DNA of 64,000 nucleotides, taken from assembly GCF_008326425.1 (NCBI RefSeq), contig NZ_AP018929.1, forward strand, positions 1,068,875 through 1,132,874. The letters run 5' to 3'. The position numbers and the translations under genes are program-made. How positions within the stretch are numbered: position 1 is the stretch's first letter; each line of letters opens with the position of its first letter. Under the pieces are notes generated by a model. It worked only from the letters and a program-made list of their open reading frames with translations. It had not been told where the DNA came from and searched no databases. Positions 36,551 through 38,491 of the stretch are shown here, one piece after another. This stretch comes from Sulfuracidifex tepidarius. GTDB lineage: Archaea > Thermoproteota > Thermoprotei_A > Sulfolobales > Sulfolobaceae.

Positions 36551-36793
36551 TCACCCTACAACGTAGGCCATTATTGCTTGTATAGCGAAAGCTAACAACC
36601 CAACAACCAATATAATTAAACCTGTAATTCTCAGGTTGAACTTGTAAGTTTCTTTATCAGGTTTCTTTGCTACTGTAATTATTCTGTTCCAATCTTCCCT
36701 TCTATGCTGAAACCATGCTACGACAAAGTTGCTGCTACCCTTGCCTTTTGAGCCTGCGTTCTGTTTGCTTTTTGGCGTAGATTTACTTGACAT
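36551..36793 (-). CDS. secE: Protein translocase subunit SecE (Sss1/Sec61 gamma)
   Basis: Small membrane subunit of the Sec translocon. The 80-residue protein has a lysine- and serine-rich N terminus, the amphipathic helix VVAWFQHRREDWNRIITVAKKPD and one membrane helix near the C terminus (ITGLIILVVGLLAFAIQAIM). The N-terminal tail is longer than in the shortest archaeal SecE proteins. It lies between ftsY and spt5, the typical archaeal order. Confidence 0.93.
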   Translation of the reverse strand: MSSKSTPKSKQNAGSKGKGSSNFVVAWFQHRREDWNRIITVAKKPDKETYKFNLRITGLIILVVGLLAFAIQAIMAYVVG

Positions 36794-36826: not shown

Positions 36827-38053
36827 TTAACTACTGAATAGCCTATCGATGAACCACTGAGCTGAGAAAGGCTCTAAGTTCTCGTATTCCTGACCTACAC
36901 CCAGGAATATAACAGGTTTCTTTAGCTCGTAAGCTAAGGAAAGGACAACTCCTCCTTTAGCGTCAGCGTCCACTTTCGTAAGTATCACAGCATCGAAACC
37001 AATAGCGTTCTCAAAATACTTAGCTTGTTCAAGCGTGTCGTTCCCTCCCAACGAGTCCAAAACCAATATCTTAAAATTAGGCTTAGCTATCTTCATAACT
37101 CTTCTCAGTTCATTGGTTAGGTCTGCATCAGTATTCATTCTTCCTGCTGTGTCGACAAGGACTACGTCTATGTTTCTACTCTTAGCTGATTGGATCGCAT
37201 CGAAAGCCACTGCAGCAGGGTCGCCACCATATTTTCCCTTAACCATAGGTACTTCGAGTTTCTGTGCGTGTATCGCAAGTTGTTCTTGGGCGGCGGCCCT
37301 GAAAGTGTCAGAGGCTGATACTATGCACGTTAATCCGTTCTTCTTCAGCATGTAAATGAACTTCGCTATTGTTGTGGTTTTTCCTACACCATTGACACCG
37401 AAGAAAACTATAACGAAAGGCCTTTGAGACTCTTTTATTATTTTTATTATATCTATATTTTCATTTTTTGTTAAAATTTCTTCTATAGATTTTTTTAGTG
37501 TATCCATAACTGTTTGCTCCAGATCTTCACTTCGCCTTATTTTCTTCCCGACTATAGCTTTCTTTATATCATCAAGCAATTTCTCGGTTACCTCGTATGT
37601 TACGTCGCTTTCTAATAGCTGATACCGGAGCTCCTCTATTAGGTCCTCTACGTCCTTTTCTTTTATCTCTTTATATCTAAAGATATCGAAAAATCCCGTC
37701 CTTTTCTTTTCGTCCTTTCTTTCGGTTCCAGTTATGCTGGTCTCTTTCTCGACTTCGTTATCTCCCGCTTTAACTTCTGTGGAATTCTGCGTTGAAGGGT
37801 TGGGCTGTTCCGTTGTTTGCGGGACCTCCTTGCTTACCTCCTTGGGAAGATCTTTCTGCTCGTTTCTTGATACATTATCTAATTCAATATGGCTTTCTTC
37901 TTCAATTGAGGTTTTTTCCTCAACTTTTGGAGCTTCCTTTTCTCGAGGTGATTGGGAAACTGCTTGATTTTGGGGTGTCTCCTGAGGTTTTTCAGGTTCT
38001 TCCTTGAACTTTCCTACAAAATTAGAAAAAGCTTTTTTTAATTTATCGAAACA
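36827..38053 (-). CDS. ftsY: Signal recognition particle receptor FtsY, no canonical start codon
   Basis: SRP receptor GTPase. The G domain has GVNGVGKTTT, DTAGRMNTD and TKVDADAKGG. The full frame is open from the pfdA stop (38059 downwards): an N-terminal F-D-K-L-K-K-A-F-S-N-F-V-G segment, a charged proline/glutamine-rich A domain, then the N domain (FFDIFRYKEIK, LIEELRYQLLESDV). No ATG, GTG or TTG occurs in this frame before 37579, which would cut off part of the N domain. The expected initiator position before F-D-K is TGT at 38053, ideally spaced after GGTGA. Either a base is wrong or mutated there, or initiation is unusual. The start given is therefore provisional. Confidence 0.8.
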   Translation of the reverse strand, partial: CFDKLKKAFSNFVGKFKEEPEKPQETPQNQAVSQSPREKEAPKVEEKTSIEEESHIELDNVSRNEQKDLPKEVSKEVPQTTEQPNPSTQNSTEVKAGDNEVEKETSITGTERKDEKKRTGFFDIFRYKEIKEKDVEDLIEELRYQLLESDVTYEVTEKLLDDIKKAIVGKKIRRSEDLEQTVMDTLKKSIEEILTKNENIDIIKIIKESQRPFVIVFFGVNGVGKTTTIAKFIYMLKKNGLTCIVSASDTFRAAAQEQLAIHAQKLEVPMVKGKYGGDPAAVAFDAIQSAKSRNIDVVLVDTAGRMNTDADLTNELRRVMKIAKPNFKILVLDSLGGNDTLEQAKYFENAIGFDAVILTKVDADAKGGVVLSLAYELKKPVIFLGVGQEYENLEPFSAQWFIDRLFSS

Positions 38054-38059
38054 GGAGAA

Positions 38060-38491
38060 TCACCTTGGCTGTTCTGCCTGCGCCCTTTCAAGAATCTCGG
38101 CTATCTGATAGTAGGCAGTAGCAGCCTTATCCCTTTCCGCTATCATACCTTGAAGAGCTTTATTGACCTCGTCCTTCCTACTGTCAAGGAACTTCTTTGC
38201 GTGATCTGGAGAAACTTCTGCATAGTATCCTAGACCTATATTCAAAGTTACCTTTGAGTTGTCCTTAACTTCACCTTTAATCAGTAGGAAGCCTTTCCTG
38301 TCCACCGTAATCAATTGATCCCCTTTTTCATTGATGTTATCTAAAAACTGCTTCGCCGATTCTATAGACGCAAGTGAATCTGTTAGGTCAGCTATAGATT
38401 TTTGTAGCATATCAATGTATCTTTTTAGATAATCTGCTTGTGCTAACAAGTCCTCCAAGGAGACTTGCATCTCTCTATTCTGATCTGCCAT
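38060..38491 (-). CDS. pfdA: Prefoldin alpha subunit
   Basis: Subunit of the jellyfish-shaped chaperone that delivers unfolded proteins to the thermosome. The 143 residues form two coiled-coil helices (about 5-50 and 95-140) around a beta-hairpin region with VTLNIGLGYYAEVS. Its last codons carry GGTGA, a good ribosome binding site for ftsY, which follows at once. It lies 14 bases after rplX. Confidence 0.93.
   Translation of the reverse strand: MADQNREMQVSLEDLLAQADYLKRYIDMLQKSIADLTDSLASIESAKQFLDNINEKGDQLITVDRKGFLLIKGEVKDNSKVTLNIGLGYYAEVSPDHAKKFLDSRKDEVNKALQGMIAERDKAATAYYQIAEILERAQAEQPR

Follow-up and report, generated by a model that had tools for sequence, protein, structure and literature searches.

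The window, a 64,000-nucleotide stretch of the single-contig, 2.56 Mb genome of Sulfuracidifex tepidarius, contains an operon on the reverse strand in which pfdA, encoding the prefoldin alpha subunit (38060-38491; TIGR00293, 91.7 bits), is followed by ftsY and then by secE (36551-36793). FtsY is the SRP receptor, an SRP GTPase that serves as the core protein-targeting receptor and is encoded by a universally conserved gene. Its two neighbors both have ordinary ATG starts. The ftsY frame is open directly past the pfdA TGA (38060-38062) and runs for 410 codons to a stop at 36827, and its product is FtsY by the profile TIGR00064 (343.9 bits, cut-off 260.7), in agreement with the original prediction. 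The FtsY structures 5l3w and 5l3s also align with this protein, the matched structures covering the NG domain only. The closest other ftsY-like match in the genome is distant, with about 30% identity, and is taken to be the Ffh/SRP54 paralogue.

The ftsY gene has no ATG, GTG or TTG at its natural start. The earliest such codon in frame is a TTG at codon 160 (37579), within the N domain, and a TGT stands where the initiator would be expected; both had been claimed before, and the reverse-strand sequence confirms them. Read from 38065 downward, the junction consists of AGG TGA TTC TCC, then TGT TTC GAT AAA, then TTA AAA AAA GCT TTT. It includes a Shine-Dalgarno sequence, GGTGA (38060-38064), at the end of pfdA. 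A CTG in the -1 frame (38052-38054), which had no part in the earlier reading, occupies the ancestral position of an NTG start, as judged from the family and outgroup comparison, and is the proposed initiation codon. It is followed by UUU (38049-38051), the proposed slippery P-site codon, from which tRNA-Phe would move by +1 onto UUC (38048-38050). The next zero-frame codon, which would be in the A site, is CGA (38046-38048), a rare Arg codon that is expected to be slow from codon counts, and the zero frame then ends at a TAA (38043-38045). The ftsY body, from Phe2 to the stop (TTC GAT AAA ... AGT TAA), spans 36827-38050, based on the frame and the TIGR00064 match. The predicted FtsY of the window is Met plus 407 residues, or 408 aa. 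The separately assembled congeneric MAG UBA167 (L032) has an identical junction, TTCTCCTGTTTCGAT.

The junction was compared across 31 Sulfolobaceae genomes from 11 genera (g1-g11, where g1 is the genus of the window), with one genome per species. Species of the same genus are not independent, so the evidence from Sulfolobaceae amounts to 11 genera. One arrangement is found in all 31 genomes: GGTG, 6-7 nt, and then either YTG-T-TTY-GA (30 genomes) or ACG-T-TTT-GA (one genome, in g2). The GGTG Shine-Dalgarno sequence is present at ftsY in 30 of the 31, with one genome lacking it, and the commonest spacing for ordinary genes of Sulfolobaceae genomes is 5-8 nt. The codon at the ancestral start position is TTG in 21 genomes, CTG in nine and ACG in one. 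TGTTTY occurs at the site in 30/31 genomes and GTTTY in 31/31, and UUU followed by a pyrimidine is likewise found in every genome. The zero-frame codon after UUU is CGA in 17 genomes, including the window, and UGA in the other 14. The frame opened by YTG or ACG ends after 2-18 codons, and ftsY lies in the +1 frame relative to it in all 31 genomes. An ordinary start at the conserved N terminus is missing from most of the family, since 27 of the 31 genomes have no in-frame ATG, GTG or TTG ahead of the conserved CFDK. The original prediction had offered a sequence error or a fresh mutation as possible causes. Both are ruled out by the same one-base offset being fixed in 31 genomes of 11 genera, and the error also by the independent UBA167 assembly.

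In the remaining four genomes (L024-L027), which are among the six species of g10, a GTG in the ftsY frame overlaps the pfdA TGA (as GTGA), and the other two species have GTA at this place. The GTG is 1 nt from GGTG and two codons upstream of TGT, and seems to arise incidentally from the pfdA stop, although it could also act as a coupled ftsY start in these species, without any shift. The sole family member without TGT is L028 (G003), the draft genome on which the g2 state rests, and its junction reads TAATAACGTTTTGATAG. There the ftsY frame has a CGT immediately behind two TAA codons, and the start frame reads ACG TTT TGA.

The ftsY genes of the rest of the order have ordinary starts. A canonical NTG was found in 28/28 outgroup genomes from ten other families, placed directly before the same Phe/Leu in 23 and one codon earlier in five. 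TTG is the most frequent start, and examples include TTG TTC GAC AAG and GTG TTT GAT AAA TTA AGG AAA. The Sulfolobaceae sequence TTG T TTC GAT AAA is the outgroup sequence plus one T. Since the canonical outgroup start is at the same residue, the Sulfolobaceae differ by exactly one T, which in the window corresponds to 38051 (third base of the in-frame TGT), although sequence comparison does not assign an insertion within a T run to one particular position. In the NG-domain tree all 31 family genomes lie on one side of a branch with support of 100/100, and the T added after the old start codon, ahead of codon 2, maps to this one branch. UUG is the commonest codon at the ancestral position on the tree, with separate changes to CUG twice (g1 and g10) and to ACG once. 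The alignment with other Sulfolobales starts, which had been suggested as a check, thus provided the decisive evidence, one extra T in Sulfolobaceae only. It also bears on the proposal that removal of one T would restore a start. The single extra base holds up, but the start that it displaces is the conserved YTG and not the GTG at the pfdA stop, which is 1 nt from GGTG, present in few species and not conserved.

These patterns suggest that ftsY of all Sulfolobaceae is probably expressed via +1 frameshifting by the ribosome at codon 2. The ribosome would bind GGTGA at the end of pfdA and initiate at the old start codon, which is UUG in the majority of genomes but CUG in the window. UUU would then be decoded as Phe, with the next zero-frame codon being slow, either the rare Arg codon CGA or the stop UGA, and the start codon in the E site being only weakly paired with initiator tRNA. 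In this state tRNA-Phe may detach and re-pair one base downstream on UUC or UUU, and reading would resume with Asp-Lys-Leu to give Met-Phe-Asp-Lys-Leu-Lys-Lys-Ala-Phe. The slip at UUU, its efficiency and its possible regulation are inferred. The non-canonical initiation of the original prediction survives here in a sharpened form, as a YTG start with a putative +1 slip.

The junction contains known determinants of +1 shifts, namely a Phe codon that allows re-pairing, a rare or stop codon after it, a mismatched start codon that would be in the E site and a Shine-Dalgarno sequence. The GGTG 6-7 nt before the start (30/31) may act as a stimulator, but it has a role in initiation as well. Shifts by +1 are known to be promoted when the A-site codon is slow and E-site pairing is weak, and UUU_Y is +1-prone in bacteria (PMC5009743). 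The E-site codon is never AUG among the 31 family genomes, and the frequency of CGA is 0.6-2.4 per 1000 codons in short stretches of family genomes. In the 21 genomes with UUG, this is an ordinary start with a Shine-Dalgarno sequence nearly always at ordinary spacing, so that only the slip would be unusual. The g2 genome also supports the shift, as the Cys codon is lost (CGT) and yet a near-cognate start, ACG, is kept in the start frame. Phe is followed by a codon starting with GA (Asp/Glu) in 31/31 Sulfolobaceae versus 6/28 outgroup genomes, and as a result the zero-frame codon stays CGA or UGA. Part of this conservation also stems from common ancestry and constraint on the protein.

Several points count against the shift. 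RNAalifold on 14 sequences predicted no pairs downstream of the site, and there is thus no conserved downstream RNA structure in this set. High efficiency would be required, since FtsY is expected to be essential and the zero-frame product would have only 2-18 residues. The CUG of the window genome is itself a weak start, and the in-frame GTG two codons upstream in four g10 genomes could serve as a start with no shift. In addition, the tRNA-Phe of Sulfolobus has wyosine-type bases at position 37 that restrain -1 slippage (PMC7761594) and may or may not affect +1 slippage. Somewhat more cautiously, we favor a stronger form of the proposal, in which a near-obligatory +1 frameshift became fixed in the ancestor shared by all Sulfolobaceae and determines the frame of this universally conserved gene, and the near-cognate UUG, CUG or ACG persists because weak pairing of the initiator favors the slip.

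The site is conserved at the nucleotide level beyond protein constraint. Base changes were counted on the NG-domain tree for the 31 family genomes. The in-frame TGT shows no change at its third base, none at its second and one at its first, versus 2-11 changes at each wobble position of codons 1-14 after TGT, where variation is mainly at third positions. The base before TGT has three changes, compared with 5-9 at its upstream neighbors, and is a pyrimidine in 30 genomes. The FtsY of L034 (G007, g6) has a very long branch of 1.14 changes per site, yet TTTTGTTTCGATAAA is unaltered, a sign of how constrained the site is.

The frozen TGT bears on the possibility that the protein has a genuine N-terminal Cys, made as Met-(x)-Cys-Phe-Asp from a non-canonical start one or two codons upstream (TTT, ATT, TCC, AAT, AGC, ATA or GTG). 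The GTG that overlaps the pfdA stop in four g10 genomes is two codons upstream and would fit, and ATA is found at that place in g3, g5 and g7. However, each genus would require a different odd start codon, codons two places upstream are about 1 nt from the Shine-Dalgarno sequence, and the sole codon between a stop and TGT is TTT or ATT in g4, g6, g8, g9 and one g5 genome. The g2 genome has zero codons between the stop and the site, and no Cys. TGC makes up 57/128 Cys codons in the window, 37/72 in two g10 genomes and 20/25 in g11, counted in short stretches. With TGC common in g1, g10 and g11, it would be expected at the site in several genera if TGT were an ordinary Cys codon. Because of the frozen wobble base and the CGT of g2, a genuine Cys is disfavored and appears quite improbable.

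Direct initiation at UGU (CGU in g2) by the initiator tRNA, placed by the Shine-Dalgarno sequence and with no frameshift, is unlikely. In its favor, TGT is nearly invariant and at the position of Met in the other families, the spacing of 7-8 nt fits too, and avoidance of A or G before TGT would prevent an out-of-frame ATG or GTG. Against it, UGU has no in-register pairing with the CAU anticodon, and in 21 genomes it would compete with an overlapping normal UUG start. It also leaves the UUU_YGA context and the CGT of g2 unexplained. We know of no natural UGU start. The frameshift and UGU initiation could yield the same protein, Met-Phe-Asp, and mass spectrometry alone cannot separate them.

The frame may alternatively be restored in the RNA, by editing or polymerase slippage that removes one U, or be reached by read-through from pfdA, but this appears highly improbable. 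One U fewer would give YUG-UUY, as needed, but the run has just 3-4 T, fewer than known slippage requires. The frame of the pfdA stop matches that of ftsY in some genera but not in g3, most of g5, g7 and g10, and read-through is rejected because of this varying relative frame; g2 moreover has a double TAA. To our knowledge, neither RNA-level restoration of frame nor such read-through has a precedent in archaea. An internal canonical start, with the N-terminal segment untranslated, is scarcely credible. The TTG at 37579 is the first in-frame canonical codon of the window, but the position of such codons differs per genome and often cuts into the N or G domain, and an internal start is rejected because these positions are not conserved. 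The segment ahead of them, CFDKLKKAFSNF, is conserved: most of its variation falls at third positions, and it corresponds to the canonical N terminus found in the other families.

The proposed +1 frameshift at UUU_Y is of a kind already known. Influenza A PA-X (site UCC_UUU_CGU) resembles ftsY in having UUU in the P site, a zero-frame Arg CGN and +1 re-pairing to UUC (PMC5009743). PA-X is viral, and its shift occurs far inside a long ORF and adds a second product, while in ftsY, a cellular archaeal gene, the shift would be at codon 2 and give the sole product. Bacterial prfB (RF2; CUU_UGA_C), which uses CUU_UGA and in a few species UUU_U (PMC5009743), shares with ftsY an upstream Shine-Dalgarno-type sequence, a slippery P-site codon and a role of weak E-site pairing, as well as the UGA in the zero-frame A site in 14 of the 31 genomes. 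Autoregulation of the prfB type, where RF2 reads the stop codon within its own gene, does not apply to ftsY, which is not a release factor gene and has CGA in place of a stop in 17/31 genomes. Unlike prfB, the ftsY Shine-Dalgarno sequence is the one for initiation, and the proposed shift is right behind the start codon. The E. coli argI error and YopN-TyeA are +1 events at UUU_Y without an adjacent stop, as proposed here (PMC5009743), but these are error-level or dual-product events, and the ftsY site is conserved family-wide with no alternative long product.

Among archaeal cases, Saccharolobus solfataricus fucA1 involves recoding by ribosomes of the same family, but in the -1 direction, with an A_AAA_AAT heptamer and a stem-loop, and is listed as the only reported archaeal -1 case (PMC8211752). 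The haloarchaeal virus HSTV-2 has a +1 shift on archaeal ribosomes (PMC8211752), though the gene is viral and yields two products. Archaeal recoding was reviewed in 2021, with fucA1 given as the only demonstrated cellular frameshift gene, magnesium chelatase as a presumed one, and a haloarchaeal virus as the sole case of +1 shifting (PMC8211752). In the literature searched, nothing linked Sulfolobales FtsY to a frameshift or start-codon problem, although older gene papers on S. solfataricus or Acidianus ambivalens may mention it, and no conserved, start-adjacent and apparently obligatory +1 shift in a core archaeal gene was found. According to the GeneTack authors, frameshifts located within 50 nt of a start went undetected (PMC3711429), and for this reason frameshift finders would miss start-adjacent events such as that of ftsY.

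If true, ftsY would be the first cellular gene of archaea with a conserved +1 frameshift, and the recoding, coupled to the start, would be of a new type that possibly makes FtsY output depend on the translation state. It would also indicate that a frame-breaking base beside the start codon can become fixed in a core gene and persist family-wide, and the N termini annotated for FtsY proteins of the Sulfolobaceae would probably be wrong too. Even without a shift, some non-canonical start of a core gene would be conserved across the family. A search of the S. tepidarius genome with the pattern GGTG-N7-TGTTTYGA gave a single match, ftsY, and no further copy with Shine-Dalgarno spacing. The site belongs to an operon gene in experimentally tractable species.

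The downstream gene secE (36551-36793) also differs in the genus of the window. Its product has 80 residues, versus about 59-66 in other genera, and is extended at the N terminus by about 20 residues rich in Lys and Ser.
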